Assembly (NCBI GenBank): GCA_013407085.1
Contig: JACCGJ010001312.1
Span: 124,001-188,000 of the forward strand
DNA: 64,000 nucleotides
Reading direction: 5' to 3'
Origin: Atriophallophorus winterbourni
Taxonomy: Eukaryota; Platyhelminthes; Trematoda; Plagiorchiida; Microphallidae
Shown here: positions 9,961-31,225 of the stretch, piece after piece
Numbering within the stretch: the stretch's first letter is position 1
Layout: each line of letters opens with the position of its first letter
Position numbers and translations under genes: made by a program
Notes under the pieces: generated by a model
The model's database searches: none
What the model saw: the letters and a program-made list of their open reading frames with translations, nothing else
Told to the model about the DNA's origin: nothing

Positions 9961-11785
9961 ATGAAAATTCAATTGTCTTATCATAGTCTCATCATGAGCC
10001 CCCCGAAGACGCACCACAAGTCGGACAAGTACAAAGACTTTGCCTCGGCCCAGAAGTCCAAGAGGAGCCCGACTCTCAAGAAGGCAGCTGACTTGGAAGG
10101 TGGGTGAGCGCAATATTCGGTTAACTTCGATACTATTCGCTATAATTCGCTATATAATTTGCTATGTTATTCGTTATACTTCGCTATATTTGCAAAGCTT
10201 CACCATATTATTAGCGAAGCTTCGTTATTATTTGCTATAACTTCGAAGTTCAGAAGTCATTCCTTTACAGTTCCCTTCATCAAGATCGTTCAGTACAGCA
10301 AAATCCGCTGGTCTTCAATGTGCATGACCATCACATCCATCGTCCGGAACAAGGCGGTCCTGTTGTCGCTGAAGAATGATGTCTTCAACACCCCTTCAGA
10401 CTTTGCGGCCCTCATTCCAAACAAGCTGCAGTTTCAGGACCTGGAAGACATCCTCTGGCCCCTCGAGCAGATCAAGGAGGTCAGCAAACGTCTCCAGGCA
10501 GATGAGACGCCCACCCTGCAGCATGTCGTTCTGGACATGGCCAACATTGCCATGATGTCCGCCTCCAAGATCAAGCTGTTCGCCGACTTCAAGGATGCCA
10601 CCAAGGCATTCATCAAGAAGTTCCAGTAGGAGATCAAGATCAGAGTTCCCGAGCTGGGCAGGAACGTGGACCTCTACCAGATGGCGCACTACCTGAACCC
10701 CACTCAGAAAGCCGTGTACCTTAGGACCAGGTCTCATGGTCACCTCTTCTACAAGTGCGAGCAGAGCATCAAGTTGCTCTTGGCCCCAGGCGCCCCACCA
10801 TCCATTCAGATCCTGGAACCCGCTTGCCAAGATCTTGAAGGTTTTCTCCAAGAGCACCATGACCTTGATCTTGATCCGGAATTGGCCTTCGGCAGCGTCG
10901 ACCAGTCCCAGTCTAAACCAGCCCCAGTTCCTCCCTATGTCAAGGAGATGAATGAGTGGATGGCGTCTCCCCTGGAAAAGGAGGACATCGACGTGCTGCA
11001 GTACTTGAAGATGAAGGCCAAGAAGCTCCCTCTACTCGCCAAAGTCGCCCAGTAAGTTGTTTCAAAGTTAAAGGTCACTTATTTTCCGTTGGATTATAAT
11101 TTATTCTCGTTATTCGCCATACTTCGCTATAATATTCGCTAAACTTCGCCACACTTCGATATTATTCGCTATACTTCGATATATTATTTTCTATTGTCAG
11201 ATGTAGTATTGCTATACTTTGATATAGTATTGTTATACTTCGAAATAGTAGTTTAACTTTTACACCCCCTGGAACCTAATACAAAATACTCAACCTGTCT
11301 CATTTTCTTTTAGGATGGTCTACGCCATCCCGGCTACCTCGGCCTCATCAGAGAGGGTCTTCTCGGAAGCTGGACTCGTGACCAAGCCCACCCGAAGCCT
11401 TCTGAACAACGAGAGGGTACAGGAGCTCGTCTACATTCATGACAATTACGAGAGGGTGCTCCCCTACATGAAGAGGATGAAGCTCCGCATCCAGGAGTTC
11501 ACCAATGGCGAAGGTACCAACACTCAGAGTCAGCAGCAGCTCAAAGACCAGGATGACCCTGAGGCCAACCTTGAGGATGTCGAGTTTGTCGACACCCAGG
11601 AGCTCACGGTGGAGGCCTACACCCCTCTGACTGGAGGCAGCCGGAAAGTTCCGGCACCAGGTCCAGGTCCAGAACCCCGGTCTCAGAGACTGATTCAGAG
11701 GAGGAGCCTAATTTCCTTTGAGAGAACAATGTTTTGTATATTTCCAATTCCAAAGCTCATGAAAAAGTCCTACCTTGTCAAATAA
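9961..11785 (+). pseudogene. hAT transposase, spliced, deleted and with an early stop
   Basis: Exon 1 (from ATG 9961 or 9994 to 10099) is lysine-rich. Exon 2 (10271-11051) begins with the IRW motif of hAT transposases and helical PTLQHV-type repeats, but has a TAG at 10627-10629. Exon 3 (11314-11785) is the dimerisation domain. Both junctions keep phase: G|TT at the first, CA|G at the second. The protein would be about 460 residues against roughly 600 or more for an autonomous hAT. The BED zinc finger and the first catalytic acidic residues are missing. The C-terminal tail has a 1-base deletion near 11643 relative to copy A, changing its end. The stop TAA overlaps the polyA signal AATAAA at 11781-11786. 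Codons are strongly G/C-ending, unlike neighbouring genes. Confidence 0.8.
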
Positions 11786-12108
11786 AAGTTCTTTCATGGT
11801 CAAAAAATAATTTATTTCGGAATTCGTTTTATTTCAGCGAAGAATAGCGAATTTAAACGAATATTAGCGAATTATAACAAGGTTTTTTGTCGAAAACGAA
11901 GTTTTCGGGGGACATCGAAGTTGAGCGAAGATTATTCGCTAATATTCGTTATAGCGAAGTGCGAAGCTTCGCTTCGCTTCGCCATTGCGAAGTGCACTTC
12001 GGATATTCGCTTTGATACTATTCGCCATTGCGAAGGGCAGTTAGGGCACTTCGAAAATTCGCTTCGCACTTCGCTTCGCTCCAAAAAAGTGACATTCGTT
12101 ATTGTCTG

Positions 12109-12116
12109 ATGTAAAC
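12109..12116. repeat. hAT target-site duplication, right copy
   Basis: ATGTAAAC, matching 9377-9384. Confidence 0.95.
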
Positions 12117-13600
12117 ACCCGCGCAACCCTTGCAGTTGATTTGGTAGATGCAGTTCGTCGCACAATCTAAAGGAGTCTTATCTTTGAGATGCATTAATAC
12201 GGAGCGGAGAGTTCTACCTGCCTTATATGTTACTCTAATACCTGCGCTATTCAAGAGTCGACTTATTCCTTCGGAGGCGCTTTTGACATACGGTAGAGAT
12301 ACCGTAGCTCGCCAAACCTTTTCCGTCTTCGGTTGCGGATATTTAACTCGGTTCAATTGGCGTTTAATTAAGCTCTTGGGGTACCCATGATTTGCAAGTC
12401 GGCGACTGACTTCTTCATGAGCTCGTCTCTTATCTGCATCATCGCTGCAGAGGCGGTCAACCTTGTAGAATAGCGATTTTGCTATGGACTGAAATACCCT
12501 TTTGGGGTGCGCAGATGTGAATCTCAAAATGGCATCCGTGTCGATAGGCTTACGATATACCGTTGTTCTAATCTTGCCGTTGTCTTTTTGCGCAAGACAG
12601 TCCAAGAACGGAAGTGTCCCTTCCGTAGACTCGGTTTCCTTTGTGACCTGGATTTTTGGATTCAAACTATTGAGATAACTATGAAATGCTTCTAGTCTGT
12701 TTCGCTTTATGATGACGAATGTATCGTCGACATAGCGCCACCATATTTTTGGTTTCAACGCTTCGTTTCTCAAAGCTATCTCTTCAAAGTGCTCCATGTA
12801 CATATTCGCTAGCACTGGAGAAATGGGTGAGCCCATCGCTAAACCATCGTTTTGCTTGTATAGCTGTCCATTAAATAAGAAGTGGTTCATATTTAGACAA
12901 ATTGCTACACCGTTGATGATTTGTTGTACACTCAAGTTGGTACGATCCTTCAGGGTCATATCGGAGTTGAGTGATTTCCTCACTAATTCTAAAGCGCTTG
13001 TAGTGTCAACATTCGTGAACAAGGAGCTTACGTCAAAACTAACCATCATCTCATCCTCCCCAATTGTTACGGTACTTAAGCGACGAACAAAATCAAACGA
13101 GTTCATAATAAAAGAATTCGTGTTACCAACTAATGGTTTCAAAATCTGAGCAAGGTGCTTAGCCAATTCGTGTGTTGGGGATCCAATGCCGTCTACAATG
13201 GGCCTTAAGGGGATGCCTGCCTTATGTATCTTCGGAAGTCCATAGAACCTTGGTGTCTGAGCAGATTTTGGGTAGAGCGTGAACCATAATCTCTGACCAA
13301 GGTTTTCCTTAATTCCTCGCAGGTATCTTGAAACAACCCTCTTACGGTTATTCATAATGGTCGTAGCTCTAAGGTTGTCAATAACCTGATACGGACCTTC
13401 AGTAAGGTGTGACTCTGCCTTATGTCTATAATCACTTTTAGAAAGAATCACAGTTGCCTTGCCTTTATCTGCCTTAGTGATCACTATTTCCTCTTCTTTT
13501 CGCAATTTGAGAAGTGCTTGTTGTTCATCTCGAGTAAGGTTCATCCTTTCTGGTTGTTGTTTTTTGATAAGACTAGATATACCTTTTCGTAGCGCATCTG
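12109..13600 (-). pseudogene. PLE 1 reverse transcriptase and start of GIY-YIG
   Basis: A long open frame (ATG at 13544, but homologous sequence continues in frame upstream to a stop near 13618). Blocks in order: TKADKGKATVILSKSDYRHK, RFYGLPKIHKAGIPLRPIVD, MVSFDVSSLFTNVDT (catalytic D), GLAMGSPISPVLANMYMEHF, WWRYVDDTFV (catalytic YVDD), TLPFLDC and TVYRKPIDTD. It then enters the cysteine-bearing linker (CATNCIYQINCKGC) and the first residues of GIY-YIG. All RT catalytic motifs look intact; the element is broken by the hAT insertion and by N-terminal lesions (TGA/TAA near 13618-13625). Confidence 0.9.
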
Positions 13601-13759
13601 CCTGATTCTCATAGTCTTATCATACATCACACAGGCAATTATACAAATTTTCTACTCGGTCGATATCCTTTGGTGAAAGCATACGATTGGGTGGTTAGTG
13701 TGTCGGTGATAAATCCGGATGAATCCAATAAAAGCGTTTAGTTTGAATTTAGAAATGAA

Positions 13760-17708: not shown

Positions 17709-18530
17709 TTAAAATGGTAACTCATTTAACTGGGACCAACGAAATAGGATGCTTAGATCCCGTTGTAATGCCATACAGTCATTAACAGACCTGACACGTT
17801 TCCAAATTTTAATATCATCGGCAAATAGTATCAAGTTGCATCCAATATCCTTTACTATATCGTTCATATACACCAAGAATAGAAGAGGTCCAAGCACCGA
17901 GCCTTGCGGAACTCCACTCGTGACGTCTATTTTTCTAGATAAGGTGCTGCCAACGCGAACTTGGACATGTCTATCAGTAAGATAGTCCCTTATCCAATTC
18001 AGCAATATTCCCGTTATTCCATAGGATTCGAGCTTTTTAATTAAGATGTCATGGTTGACTCTGTCGAAAGCTTTGGAAATATCGATGTAGCAAGCATGTA
18101 CAGCCTCACCTTCGTCTAGTGCCGTGGTCCAATCCTCGAACGTTGTAAGAAGGTTAGATGAACAGCAACGACCTCTTCGAAACCCGTGAGGTGCTGCGGT
18201 CAAAATATTTTGGTTTTCAAAATGTTCTCTTATGCGCGCAGTCACAATGCGTTCCATTAATTTGGAGATCACCGGAAGTAACGTTATCGGTCTATAGTTT
18301 GCTGTGTCTGAACGGCTACCGCCTTTATAAATAGGAGTTATCATCCCTGCTTTCCATTGCGGGGGTATTTTTCCTTCATTTAAGCTGAGATTGAATATGA
18401 AAGTGAGAGGAGCAGTCAAAGCAACGCGACACCTGCGAATTACGGCGGGGGTAATTTTGTCTGAGCCAGGGGACTTCTTTTCGTTTAGTCGACAAAGTTC
18501 CCGCCCAACCATGTATTCGTTTATAGTCAT
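17709..18530 (-). pseudogene. CR1-like reverse transcriptase core, element A
   Basis: An open 273-codon frame with the complete RT core: KSPGSDKITPAVI, GGSRSDTANYRPITLLPVIS, AAPHGFRRGRCC, ACYIDISKAFDRVNH (catalytic D), GVPQGSVLGPLLFLVYMNDI and LILFADDIKIWK (catalytic FADD). The active site is intact, in contrast to the younger-looking copy at 57524-59971 where the second D is N. The frame ends where a frameshift moves the tail to another phase. Confidence 0.9.
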
Positions 18531-19790
18531 TTAACTTAATAATTCGAAATGTGGCGAACTTGATAAAGCTTGATATGGTATACAACGCTTAGCATTAAAG
18601 ACAAATGAGTAAAACGTTGCTAAAGCATCGGCGGTATCTTGGGCAATGTGGGTCAATCCTCGAGGTGTTAGTACAGAGAATACACCTGGTTTGATCTTTG
18701 ATCGTTCATTTACTATTTTGTAGAGAAGCTCAGGATTCTTTTCCATTCTCTTAAACAAGTTCCATTGGAATTGCATGCGATCTTCTCTTACAAGAGTCGT
18801 GACGTTATTCCGTATCTTACAGAATCGCTTCCAAGTTTCTTCCGTACCAAACTTCTTATGAGTTACCCAAGACTCTCGCTTAACAGCTAACCATTTCTTC
18901 GTTCTACTCCGAATAACAAACTGATTGTTGTAGCTGCGTTTTCGTGGTACAAAAATCGAGTTTTCGTAAATCTTCGAATTGAGATAATTTAGAAACGAAT
19001 TGTAATATGAGCCAGGATCCATTGAATCGAACTCATGAGTGTATGCATCCCGGAGACTGATATTTAAGGATTTCAATTTTATTTTCCTTATGACTTTTGT
19101 CTGTTCACACAATCGTTCCGCACTACATACATAATCAAACAGAAGCACAACATGATCACTCTTCCCCAGTGGTGCCGGGTATTGTATACACTCTACTGCG
19201 GTTGCCTCAGGCGTTAAGACAAGGTCAATGGTTGAACGTTGGTCAAGACCCCGCCAGCGAGTTGGCTGGTTAACGTGATTGTGTAGTGAAGCAAATTCTA
19301 TAACCTCCTTGAATTTATGTTCACGAACGAATGCAGGGAGTGCTCACCTCTCGAAAACAGATGCGGGAGATTAAAATCGCCAATGATTAGCAATTGCATA
19401 GTCTGGCTTCTTGTGATGTGTCACAATGATTCGATGAGCTTATCATTGTATGAGCTTTCGGATGATGGCGAGCGGTAAATGATGCCGATCGTACATTTAT
19501 CTCCATTGACTAGCTTTACTGAACACCACATCGTATCAGGAAGACTGAGGTCAGGATGATCGATGACGTTACACTGCGCTATACGTTCGTGATAGTAGAC
19601 TTCAACTCCACCATCGGATCTTCGATCACGATCGCGACGAAGTAGTGACATTTTCGGAATCAAAAGCTTAGCATCATTCATGCAGGGCTGGAACCAAGTC
19701 TCTGTAACTGCAATCAAATCGGGTGAAAGTCTATCACAAAGCTCACATAGTTCAGCTAATTTGTTAGTTAGGCACTGAGCATTTGTTTAA
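18531..19790 (-). pseudogene. CR1-like endonuclease and linker, element A
   Basis: 19790-19421 encodes the start of the AP-type endonuclease: LTNKLAELCEL, then SPDLIAVTETWF, RRDRDRRSDGGVEVYYHERI and WCSVKLVNGDKCTIGIIYRS. 19420-19150 is decayed. 19148-18531 is the linker to the RT (LLFDYVCSAERLCEQTKVIR, RSRTKKWLAVKRESWVTHKK, KIRNNVTTLV). A stop near 18531 separates it from the RT core. ORF2 is therefore intact in order but broken in several places. Confidence 0.8.
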
Positions 19791-19842
19791 AGTCAGATTT
19801 TTATTAATAAGTAGTATATGACGTTCGAAAAGCAGGACAGAA

Positions 19843-19885
19843 GCACACTACCGGTTTCGCGGTTATTGCCGCTCATCAGGTGTGC
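19843..19885 (-). ncRNA. Hammerhead ribozyme, complete core
   Basis: Read on the - strand: stem I GCACAC ... GTGTGC (6 perfect bp), core CTGATGA, stem II GCGG/CCGC with a CAATAA loop, core GAAA, then CCGG, T, and A as the cleavage nucleotide (GUA). Stem III is A-C-C paired with G-G-U with no loop, so as a monomer it is strained; because ACCGGU is self-complementary, two copies could pair and cut as a dimer. All invariant bases are present. Confidence 0.85.
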
Positions 19886-20149
19886 GTATCCGTGACCTGA
19901 CATTCGAACGCCGTTCTGACTTTGTGCTAAACCCATTTATTTGCGATTTCGAGGATAAATCCTCATTTGCAAATTGAAATTTAGCCTTTTATATGGGGAC
20001 TAATCTAAGTCCCACAGTTGGTGCAATGTAGCACCGATAACTGTTTGTAATATTTTTGCAACATTCCAATAACAGCAGGATGGTATTTATTGTTTAAAGT
20101 CAGATTTTTATTAATAAGTAGTATATGACGTTCGAAAAGCAGAACAGAA

Positions 20150-20184
20150 GCACACGACCGGTTTCGCGGTTATTGCCGCTCATC
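20150..20184 (-). ncRNA. Hammerhead ribozyme, 5'-truncated second copy
   Basis: The second tandem copy has the canonical GTC cleavage triplet and the GTGTGC strand of stem I, but loses the other stem I strand and the first two bases of CTGATGA at the element boundary. Cleavage here would need the core of a neighbouring copy. Confidence 0.75.
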
Positions 20185-20240
20185 TGTATATATTCACCTG
20201 ATCGTATTTGTCTTACACAATGTCGAATCGTGTACTGTAG

Positions 20241-20732
20241 CTATTGGTCCGACTCGCGATGAGCCGGACCCTTTTCGTTTTTTGGGGTAACATTTGAACT
20301 GTCAATAACAAGATTGCAATCAGGCTGTGGTTGCGATGGTTCTCTGGGTTTCAGTGAGGAAACACGCTTGGGCACACTTAGTCTCACGTCTGGTGGAAGT
20401 TTTGAGCGGTTAGATTTCCAGTCGGTGTTCATAGCGATAGCCATTTCAGTCGTTAGAAAAGTGATTTTCAGAGGACTGGGCCCATTGCCTTTGTAGTTGG
20501 AGGATCTAGGTATTCTAAAAGTTTCTACGACAATGGAATCACGAGATCCAATAGCATCGGCAATGTATAACCATTGCTTCAAATCATGTTGCTTTGATTC
20601 AGATGCTGATACTACATCAACATTTTCGGGGACACCGAGGAATATTAAACTACGTGAAATAGAGTGGTCTCGACGAGTGGATTGACCTCTCCTGACCATT
20701 GTTGAACTTTCTCCAGAGATGCTGTTTACCAC
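20241..20732 (-). pseudogene. CR1-like ORF1 protein, C-terminal part
   Basis: An open 163-codon frame: RSLIFLGVPENVDVVSASES, KQHDLKQWLYIADAIGSRDS, FRIPRSSNYKG, LKITFLTTEMA, ending ...ESDQ. The same blocks occur, decayed, at 61640-61870 and begin at 63900-64000. It resembles the RNA-binding ORF1 proteins of CR1-like LINEs. The N-terminal PHD-like zinc region (seen at 62880-63012) is absent. Confidence 0.75.
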
Positions 20733-20754
20733 TTGTTAGCGGAAAGTTTACCGG

Positions 20755-27935: not shown

Positions 27936-30900
27936 TTAAGAAGTTTGAGCTAGCCCTATCTGCGCCGCCACGCCAGACTCCGAGCATTCCTCTTCTTGTG
28001 CTCCTTCCAGCAGACAAATTTTCCGTATGTCACGTGTTACCAAACCATTTTTTGAGCGAAAAACAACAGTCTTGACCAGATCATCTTGAGTTATCGGTCT
28101 GGCATCTAACCGTTTACAGGTTAAGCATTTCGCGATTGCTCGCTTCACGCATGATAGCCCACTGATCGGCCAAAATTTCCTGCGCAGGACGCTGAGGGTA
28201 TGCGCTGGCCCAGAATGTCCTTCGAGCAGATGAACATCAAAAATCAATAGGTCAGTAACATTATGCCTTTTAGGAATTATAATGGGATGAATGCTTTCAT
28301 CTTCAAGATCAGAATGCCTCAATCGACCACCAACTTTCCTAATACCTTGATCAATAAATTGGCGTAACTTCTTCAATGATGACACATTGAACTCGCATGG
28401 CTCACTTAGCGCCTTATCACCAAATACATTCCGCTGCGTCAATCGAATAATTTCTGCTTCGGCATTTCGGAATTCGTCTAATCCGATCTTGCCTACCGAT
28501 AAAGATCCATTGGAGCCAGGACCAAACATGATAATAACATAACGCTTGAAACAGATCAGCCATGCAATCGAGCGTACAAGCCGTTTCCAACTAGAGAATC
28601 GACGAAGAATGACGTCCATCCGAATCCTTTTAATGGGACCCGAAATGTCATTTTTGTCCCAACGGAGAAATCGAAGAGCATCTCTATCATTCTCTGGCAC
28701 CTTTACCTGTAAGAACATTTCTTCGATATCAGCGGCGACGGCATAGGCGTGTAAGCGGAAGCGTATCAACACGTCGATCAAATTCGTTGTTAGATTTGGT
28801 CCTTGAAGTAGGGCATCATTCAACGATACAGCGTTGTGTTTAGCAGCACAATCGAACACAATTCTAAGCTTCTCTGGTTTCTTAGGATTGAAAACAGGAT
28901 GGTGAGGCAAATACCAAGCATGATTCTCATCTGCATTACTCGGAATGGTTTCGATATAACCAGTAGTCAAATGATGTGCCATTATCCTGTTGTAGCGTTC
29001 GAATAACGCACTGTCACGTTCGAATCGAAGCCTCAAGTAGCCCAAGCGCTTTTCCGCTATCCAATAATTTGCGGTAAGTTTACGTCTATCACCTCTCCAT
29101 GGTAGCGGCACCTGGAAGTGACCGTCAATAAATTTTGATCGTTTTACTAGAGAAAATGCTTCTTCATCTTCACGCGATCGTTCCTTGCTTTCTGTGGCAA
29201 TATCCGCAAATTCAGTATTGTATGGCCTCCTGATACATTCATCGATGGACCCCTCATCCGTATAAGAATTTAAACTGAAGACATTTTTCGAGTCTTGGCA
29301 TGCCGGTCCTTGCAAAATCCAACCCAACAATGTTTTCGTTGCAAATGGACGGCGCCTACCTCCTAATCGCTGTTCCAACGCCCAATGCGCTTCCGGAACG
29401 TTACATCCAATCAGCAAGGTTATTTCTTGTCCAACATTCTCTGAGAATGTTAGATCCTTCAAATGATCATATCTTGCGATGATACTATTCGGGGAATTCA
29501 TTGTTACTTCAGGTAACTTGGAAACCGTGTACGCTTCGGCAACATGAATTACTTCATCCCCGTCAACGGAATGTACATTGAAACTCAATACTGAACTTTT
29601 CAATTTTTGATGCAAACCGAGCGAGGTTATCGACACATCAACTGCGACACTAGGCATACCGAATTTCTCAACAAATCTTTGTGAGATCAGAGTGGTATCC
29701 GAGCCATTATCGAGTAACGCTACGACTGGAACAAGCCCCACAGGCGTGTCAATTTTCACCGTCAGGTAACCCAGGCTTACTGCTGGACTGAGAGCAGTAG
29801 CACTGTAATTAATAGTTTTTTGTTGCTCACTTATACGATTATAATGTAGAGACGAATGGTGACGTCTACCACACCCTTCGACGGAGCAAACAGTCGGCAC
29901 CTTGCAGTCGCATGCTTTATGAGACCGGTTCAAGCAAACGTAGCACATACCGTGTTGCTTAGCAATAGCCCATCTGTCTTTCACATCAGCCTTCAGATAT
30001 GTAGGGCAGTTTTCTATTCGATGAGGTCCTTTACACTGGTAGCATTCTATTCGCATTGATGGGGAGTAACTTGTGGTCATGTACACTCTTCGTCCTTCGG
30101 ACAATTTCAATTTCTCCGATGGCTTAGTCTCATTAATGAGCATGCCAAACCTGCTCCTGGCGATTCTCGCTTTGCGGGAGACAAACTCGGATAAACGTGC
30201 AAAGTCAACTTCTGACCCATCAGCGGCAATCGCATCTGCCAGTTCAGCCCATTGCTGTTGTAGTCCAGCCGGCAAACATTTGACCAATCCTTCCAAGGTG
30301 GTGACAGAGTTCAAGTCTGCTTCACAGCGCATTTGCTTTAAAGCAATCTGACAACTTTCCATCTTCAAAGCAAGGTTTGACAGACTATCCGAATCGCTTC
30401 TTACTTTGGCTGCTTCACTCAACACCTCGGTCAATAACGAGCGTGCAACGACATGAGGCAGGCCAAACATTTCCTGTAGGATGCTGCGTGCTCTTTTATA
30501 CCCGTCTTCAGGCGACAGCATCACACAAGCATCAATCGCTTTTCGAGCATTGCCTCGGCAATAATACATAAGATATAGCAAACGCTGTCCGGAATCGCAA
30601 GTTTTCGATTCTATATAACACTCAAATTGCCGAATAAATTTCCAGTAATCCACCGAATTGCCATCAAATGTAGATAACTCTACCCTAGGCAATGAAGCAA
30701 CATCGTTGACGACCCTTTGTGACATTTTCACCGCTTCCGACTCAATATGTCGATTAACCGGAACTTCAGCAACATAGTTGTCGTTGACACTGCATCCGCT
30801 CAAACGAGCTATCGTCTCCTTAGCAATCACTAAATCTCTCTCTAATTCGAGCTCACGCACAGACGGCCCATGTTTAGAGTCGAAATTAGGACTACCTCGA

Positions 30901-31007
30901 GATGATATACAAGAGCTACGCGAGGCGGAACCAACAGTGTCACTATCATTATTACAGGCAAGCTTATCAGTAATGTTCAGACGTTTCGATTTACGTGGCA
31001 TTATCAA
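27936..31007 (-). pseudogene. BEL/Pao gag-pol polyprotein, in-frame deleted
   Basis: One open frame of 1,023 codons (likely start at MPRKSKR, 31001). In order: gag with a DUF1759-like region (LPRVELSTFDGNSVDYWKFI), zinc knuckles (CYQCKGPHRIENC, CYVCLNRSHKACDC), a Pao-type protease (VALLDNGSDTTLIS), the RT start (LRIVFDCAAKHNAVSLND and AVAADIEEMFLQVKVPE, first catalytic D). The RT then stops before its YVDD, and the frame jumps to the region before integrase (FSSWKRLVRSIAWL) and the H2C2 zinc finger (GHSGPAHTLSVLRRKFWPI ... CLTCK). The integrase core is absent and the last ~45 residues are unrelated sequence. RNase H is missing. The frame surviving two deletions is notable. Confidence 0.9.
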
Positions 31008-31225
31008 AAATGGCGAAACACAAAATAAAAAAAGGCAAGAACGTCACCAATGTTTGAACAGAAATGAGTAGATGTACGAGGGTCCAAGTTGATCCTCGTT
31101 CCGCTGGATTGGACCGTATCCAATTATGCAATTCGATTTGAGTGCTTCCCGTCAAGTTCGGGAAGAAAACGAATACTTCTCGTCCAGTTGGAGAAGAACC
31201 AAAATCCAGTTCCCAAATTGAGTAC

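Follow-up and report, generated by a model that had tools for sequence, protein, structure and literature searches.

Insertion scars of a flatworm hammerhead retrozyme favour a Penelope-like protein acting on a presumed circular RNA

Introduction

The insertion scars of a 307-nt hammerhead retrozyme in the genome of the trematode Atriophallophorus winterbourni favour integration by a Penelope-like element (PLE) protein acting on a presumed circular RNA, with a LINE enzyme as the main alternative. That the PLE protein would start reverse transcription internally on this circle is, in our estimate, the best explanation, at a probability of about three in four. The repeat family, its hammerhead, two sites holding the 3′ ends, variable 5′ ends, head-to-head doubles and some target duplications are all present in the DNA, and they resemble the scars of PLEs. 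The element was found inside a CR1 LINE in a 64,000-nt stretch of contig JACCGJ010001312.1 (assembly GCA_013407085.1), hereafter called the window.

Metazoan retrozymes were defined in PMC7229834, which in 2020 named PLEs as a strong candidate for their mobilisation on the grounds of shared hammerheads, tandem copies and co-occurrence; passages of PMC7761336 and PMC11722881 repeat the proposal. Among the open-licence PubMed Central papers listed for the subject we found neither a mapping of retrozyme insertion ends nor internal initiation for retrozymes, and to that extent retrozyme integration scars are unreported.

Results

The insertion in the window

The features of the insert are as follows.

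19783..20186, sense strand (−): retrozyme insertion, 1.31 times the 307-nt unit in length (repeat, boundary mapping, uninterrupted CR1 copies)
5′ end ~20184 and 3′ end ~19783 (−): ends of the insert (boundary mapping)
19843..19885 (−): complete type I hammerhead (Rfam match, structural scan, dimer fold)
20150..20184 (−): 5′-truncated hammerhead that begins GATGAG and lacks the 5′ strand of stem I; its triplet, at 20156, is GTC (direct reading, partial HH9 match)
19783..19790 (−): 3′ end of the insert, putative start-of-copying site 1 (unit positions 63-72, ..TTTAAACAA; end mapping, unpaired in the predicted circle)

A first-pass annotation of the letters alone had described a block repeated at 307 bp, a hammerhead on the − strand in each repeat copy with one core complete, and differing cleavage triplets. 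These observations are borne out: the 95 nt at 19783-19877 appear again, 98% identical and 307 apart, at 20090-20184, one hammerhead is complete and the other is 5′-truncated. The structural scan and direct reading also agree with its 6-bp stem I, 4-bp stem II and loopless stem III, as the complete hammerhead consists of stem I GCACAC/GTGTGC, the core CTGATGA..GAA, stem II GCGG/CCGC (four pairs) and a stem III of ACCGGT (RNA ACCGGU), 3+3, without a loop. Its predicted cleavage falls between 19849 and 19848 after the triplet GTA, which, like the GTC of the truncated copy, is read directly from the letters. The Rfam model HH9 (RF02275) matches 19900-19826(−) with 42.3 bits, under the curated cut-off of 52, at an E-value of 2e-7 for the whole window (6.4e-8 in another run), and partially matches 20186-20156(−) at E 0.43. 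By the criteria of the script-based structural scan, the window holds one complete type I core, with a 6-bp stem I.

The host is a CR1 element on the same strand.

17709..19786 (−): remainder of CR1 ORF2, its frame broken between the endonuclease-like part and the reverse transcriptase
19786-19421 (−): endonuclease-like frame (TNAQCLTNKLAEL.., by eye)
19343-18531 (−): downstream frame, PF14529 match of 25.2 bits, below its cut-off of 27.4
18530-17709 (−): reverse transcriptase (PF00078, E 5e-31)
20187..20735 (−): upstream part of CR1, family copies 98-99% identical
20241-20735 (−): ORF1-like frame in the upstream part, no Pfam match

The insert had been placed between ORF1 and ORF2. It does lie inside CR1, but not strictly between the two frames: in an uninterrupted copy (L037) the ORF2 frame crosses the site (..MKYIYT|NAHCLTNKLAEF..), reaching a stop codon within a few residues, so that the insertion sits in the first codons of the endonuclease-like frame of ORF2. 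CR1 sequences without the insert were found at L037 and, in the window, at ~62487 and ~63051. Flank searches, which scored 40 of 1,450 and 40 of 1,608 candidates, gave eight contigs with uninterrupted CR1 (C6405, C184, C410, C6276, C12263, C11611, C8735 and C3366), in each of which the sequences on either side of the site match at 96-99%, with a 4-bp overlap there. Because these copies are so nearly identical to the flanks, the insertion is recent. Neither the flanks nor the eight contigs reveal a target duplication of the window copy longer than 3-4 bp, and the 4-bp overlap coincides with the element's own ACAA end (microhomology). A match to the Twister-P1 ribozyme at 62239-62185 (−) borders an interrupted CR1 copy; its 44.0 bits (E 2e-6) fall short of the curated cut-off, 67.2.

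A dispersed family of metazoan retrozymes

The 30-nt hammerhead core, with up to three mismatches, matches the 537-Mb genome 2,161 times (1,070 + 1,091) and its reversed control never; thus, the hammerhead repeat is not due to chance. A DNA search with the insert gave at least 214 matches (40 of 1,806 candidate places scored). The fetched loci comprise dispersed insertions of 0.5-3 units as well as arrays that hold between 5 and 31 (the largest 30.6), which supplies the genome-wide tandem copies that the first-pass annotation had proposed to look for; its reading of a retrozyme-like tandem hammerhead element inside a CR1 LINE is supported by the repeat, the core and these copies together. The core pattern is intact in 103 of 135 full units and absent from the other 32. 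At H17 these 103 carry C in 100 cases and G, a non-cleavable base, in three; since the family mostly has C, the GTA triplet is the window copy's own deviation.

On its sequence the element is a non-coding metazoan non-LTR retrozyme, as every sequence criterion that could be tested agrees. Its 307-nt units fall within the ~170-400 bp expected of tandem retrozyme units, at 0.5 to 30.6 units per insertion, and the type I hammerhead expected of each unit is the one described above. The GC content, expected below 50%, is 38.8%, and no coding frame was found: an endless tandem of the unit has no open frame longer than 51 aa (longest 49 aa in sense, 51 aa in antisense), and the frames within the window insert reach 54 aa. 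Target duplications should exceed 4 bp if present; five of the 17 simple insertions have one of 8-14 bp, and the double L044 has one of 13 bp. PLEs occur in the same genome, and the retrozyme shows the PLE-like behaviour of two internal 3′-end sites and head-to-head doubles. A plant LTR retrozyme, with a type III hammerhead in long terminal repeats, is ruled out by the type I core, and a Penelope-like element with its own reverse transcriptase frame by the non-coding unit.

The retrozymes of Acropora, Mytilus and axolotl, as described in PMC7229834, likewise consist of tandem non-coding units of 170-400 nt with a type I hammerhead, a GC content under 50%, a highly self-paired predicted circle and coexisting PLEs. 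This likeness is one of description, and the integration mechanism, proposed for those elements, is here read from insertion scars. The schistosome SMalpha/Sjalpha and W elements are also flatworm repeats with type I hammerheads; PMC8490949 describes them as SINE-like or as W-chromosome satellites, and they too are compared with the retrozyme by description.

A second hammerhead repeat of ~200 bp (..ACC CTGATGA GTGC..GCAC GAA ACCAGTC..) occurs at L015 3616-3437 (−), with partial copies in many loci, and in the window at ~56960-56877, 57131-56997, 7543, 50222, 51411 and 15284. Its likeness to the 307-nt unit is confined to the ~36 nt of the hammerhead core. Elsewhere in the window, a long frame at 27936-31043 (−) matches an integrase zinc-binding domain and, more weakly, DUF1759 and an aspartyl protease, and we take it to be probably a BEL/Pao retroelement. 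COX1-like fragments with stops on C4859, C4746, C8922 and other contigs (24 matches) are apparently nuclear mitochondrial insertions. The cytochrome oxidase fragment, judged by eye, translates best under the flatworm mitochondrial codes (tables 9 and 14), and among the 120 of 5,051 COX1 matches listed no name belongs to a flatworm.

Two fixed 3′ ends and variable 5′ ends

Unit positions are numbered from the base after the hammerhead cut. The 3′ ends of 27 retrozyme insertions were mapped: 13 lie at 63-72, 13 at 213-220 and one was called at 86, so that 26 of 27 fall in two 10-nt intervals of the 307-nt unit, where the best of 2,000 random sets reached 12. The end called at 86 by BLAST (L062), probably an overrun through a 9-nt shared word, was counted as outside; L046, which belongs to the same array as L045, and L055, whose 3′ end is cut by the contig, were left out. 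The 5′ ends (n = 25, leaving out L046, L048 with a run of N, and L053 and L058 at contig starts) are variable and far less clustered, with 10 in the best two intervals against a random mean of 6.6 (P = 0.009). Target-primed copying is marked by a 3′ end that is fixed and a 5′ end that varies; to find two fixed 3′ ends, both away from the ribozyme cut, is unusual. The first-pass statement that the insertion starts inside the hammerhead holds for the 5′ truncation of the window copy but not as a fixed feature of the family, which is the 3′ end, at two places. Six of the 25 5′ ends lie at 164-173 (P = 0.016, best interval), near the 5′ base of the predicted hairpin that holds site 2, and several of these show, by eye, GCT microhomology.

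Three head-to-head doubles have both 3′ ends outward: L044 (72/218), L047 (66/220) and C33 (L063+L065, 69/213). All three carry one end of each kind. By eye, L044 has a target duplication of 13 bp and L047 one of 12 bp with two mismatches; in C33 no clear target duplication was seen by eye. Among simple insertions, the duplication score reached at least 8 in 5 of 17 (the 8-14 bp cases above), compared with 5 of 272 mismatched control pairs.

This pattern bears on whether the repeat is satellite DNA, spread by unequal exchange or by reinserted extrachromosomal DNA circles, with the hammerhead incidental. The long arrays of 17-31 units could have grown in this way, and conservation does not single out the hammerhead stretch, since 45 of 307 intervals of the unit are just as conserved. 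Its mean divergence is, however, lower than that of the rest of the unit (0.028 versus 0.044), and spread at the DNA level predicts neither 3′ ends confined to two sites and target duplications nor a recent insertion into one young LINE copy. We regard this origin as very improbable; satellite-type dispersal is disfavoured by the end pattern, and the arrays may have grown by exchange.

The resident PLE leaves similar scars

A PLE lies in the same window.

12102..13616 (−): truncated PLE, reverse transcriptase (same family as genome copies with open 878-aa frames)

It marks a candidate family for the source of the enzyme and is itself not that source. A genome search gave at least 86 matches (85 of 13,595 candidate places scored), many 95-98% identical. 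The family includes several stop-free 878-aa frames and ~2.75-kb tandems, with protein identities of up to 98%; three fetched copies whose 878-aa frames lack stops, two standing in tandem, are 97% identical to the PLE of the window. Named relatives among 120 of 2,790 matches listed include Opisthorchis, Heterobilharzia and Schistosoma, and also a tapeworm, lancelet, corals and fish. A Pfam search of the open 878-aa frame did not find the GIY-YIG domain; the motif GVYIGQT was seen in the frame by eye alone. Rfam found no hammerhead in four PLE loci; a minimal PLE hammerhead (TTGGT CTGACGA .. GAA ACGT T ACCAA) was read by eye and placed by script. Near the truncated PLE of the window, a frame at ~11252-11785 (+) looks by eye like the end of a hAT transposase.

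Counted in nucleotides after its own hammerhead cut, 9 of 35 PLE 3′ ends lie at 36-54, 18 at 83-96 and 8 elsewhere; L026 contributes two of the 27 at the two main sites. In L010, L017, L020 and L023+L067 two copies stand head to head with their 5′ ends abutting and each outer end at one of the sites; all four doubles have one end of each kind. They carry, by eye, 11-15-bp duplications, one with a mismatch. This count omits L026 (a palindrome that includes the flanks, both ends at one site), L013 (a 423-bp gap between the partners, ends 46/89), L015 and L022 (one outer end away from both sites), and L018, L019, L028, L032 and L038 (an end cut off or truncated elsewhere); the L018 junction is common to L018 and L023. 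In L010, L017, L020 and L023 the first-site arm is long (~2.2-2.7 kb) and the second-site arm short (0.35-1 kb), in four of four. Under independent choice of site, the mixed doubles of the retrozyme (3/3) and the PLE (4/4) together would have a probability of 0.005.

Work with the purified anole PLE (PMC11167929) showed internal initiation at two adjacent sites and extension of both strands of the target, and for rotifer PLEs the account in PMC3846280 includes head-to-head inverted copies with 8-10-bp duplications, in one case without a duplication and via microhomology. The retrozyme resembles PLEs such as anole PAc (PMC11167929) and rotifer Pen2a (PMC3846280) in its two apparent internal starts, partial tandems, head-to-head inverted copies and short target duplications (9 bp in Pen2a). 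The differences are that PLEs encode a reverse transcriptase and an endonuclease whereas the retrozyme codes for nothing, and that its sites lie ~150 nt apart, compared with ~45 nt in the flatworm PLE and 30-50 in PLEs. The hammerhead-tail region of the PLE showed no significant sequence similarity to the retrozyme or its sites, their best local score of 20 being reached by 67 of 300 shuffles.

A single cDNA that primes itself on an antisense template could account for the doubles in place of priming by both target strands; only this step is at issue, and the enzyme could still be that of a PLE. Self-priming from palindromes was proposed in PMC3846280 for inverted junctions of rotifer PLEs, and the junctions of the flatworm doubles overlap by 0-18 bp. 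Still, all seven evaluable doubles have different initiation sites at their outer ends, each joined to target DNA, and six of the seven show recognisable duplications by eye. Two independent primings give mixed outer ends and duplications directly, and we consider self-priming unlikely.

Predicted RNA folds

In the modelled folds, ACCGGU closes on itself by one pair at most, and stem III needs two copies in order to form. When two hammerhead strands with C at H17, the usual base in the family, are folded together, the result is a double hammerhead with ACCGGU paired to ACCGGU, at a predicted −35.1 kcal/mol for the dimer versus −15.5 for the monomer, whose best fold is not a hammerhead. The PLE hammerhead strands gave no double hammerhead in the same cofold test. 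The flatworm unit resembles axolotl HHR_Amex1 and the satellite hammerheads of newt and salamander (PMC7229834) in its one-pair helix III and its predicted need for a dimer; the counterpart of their palindromic tetraloop is CCGG capped by an A-U pair. Invertebrate retrozyme hammerheads, by the account in PMC7229834, typically have a longer helix III and are active as monomers, and in this the flatworm element departs from them.

The circular fold of the unit has a predicted minimum free energy of −89.9 kcal/mol, compared with −58.2 ± 5.5 for 100 shuffles (z = −5.8). In the predicted circle, site 1 lies in the unpaired multiloop stretch 61-79 and site 2 at the internal loop 218-221, in a hairpin that opens from the multiloop. 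Seven of the 13 ends at site 2 fall in the unpaired 218-221, and six just inside the neighbouring helix.

Discussion

The internal start on a circular RNA that we prefer can be set out as a sequence of steps, in which transcription, cleavage, circularity and the PLE protein as the enzyme are inferred from the DNA. Tandem genomic copies would be transcribed, and the transcript would cut itself as a double hammerhead, owing to the self-complementary, loopless ACCGGU of stem III. The 307-nt monomers would be closed into circles. The PLE protein would cut both strands of the target and copy the circle from an internal start at one of two sites, at unit positions ~63-72 and ~213-220, proceeding round it over a variable distance; insertions of 0.5 to many units, fixed at the 3′ end and variable at the 5′ end, would be the result. 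Where both cut strands prime, two cDNAs would be joined head to head, in many cases through microhomology, with an 11-15-bp duplication flanking the product. The link between retrozyme and PLE suggested in the first-pass annotation gains support from the insertion scars common to both.

As a rule, LINE copies have one common 3′ end. A LINE enzyme of CR1 or RTE type that used conventional target-primed reverse transcription on retrozyme RNA, whether linear or circular, would sit poorly with the two internal 3′ ends of the retrozyme, neither at the hammerhead cut, and with its doubles, whose 3′ ends both point outward as in the resident PLE. Young CR1 copies are nonetheless abundant (98-99% identical; 40 of 1,450 candidates scored), target duplications do occur in retrozyme insertions, and PMC7229834 names LINEs and PLEs alike as candidates; we judge a LINE enzyme improbable, if less so than a satellite origin. 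Copying of a circle by the PLE protein has its own points against it: the small counts of doubles, the 8 of 35 PLE 3′ ends off-site and the 12 of 17 simple insertions without a duplication above control. Also against it stand the insignificant similarity between the PLE hammerhead-tail region and the retrozyme, the different spacing of the two sites, the six site-2 ends inside a helix, the window copy and C33 with no clear duplication, the PLE pairs L015, L022 and L026 that depart from the pattern, and the PLE hammerhead that did not form a double.

A circle has no 3′ end, and thus an enzyme that starts internally and primes from both strands is what can integrate it. It seems fairly likely that animal retrozymes in general exploit this PLE habit of starting reverse transcription internally, and a pair of fixed 3′ ends, with head-to-head doubles bearing one of each, would then with similar likelihood be the genomic hallmark of such integration. 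The scars in the retrozyme and the PLE of one genome turn the earlier PLE proposal into a specific, testable model, which would explain why a circular template needs initiation of the PLE type. The same scar test can be applied to any sequenced animal with retrozymes, and the shared scars suggest a route by which circles of retrozyme RNA may return into DNA.
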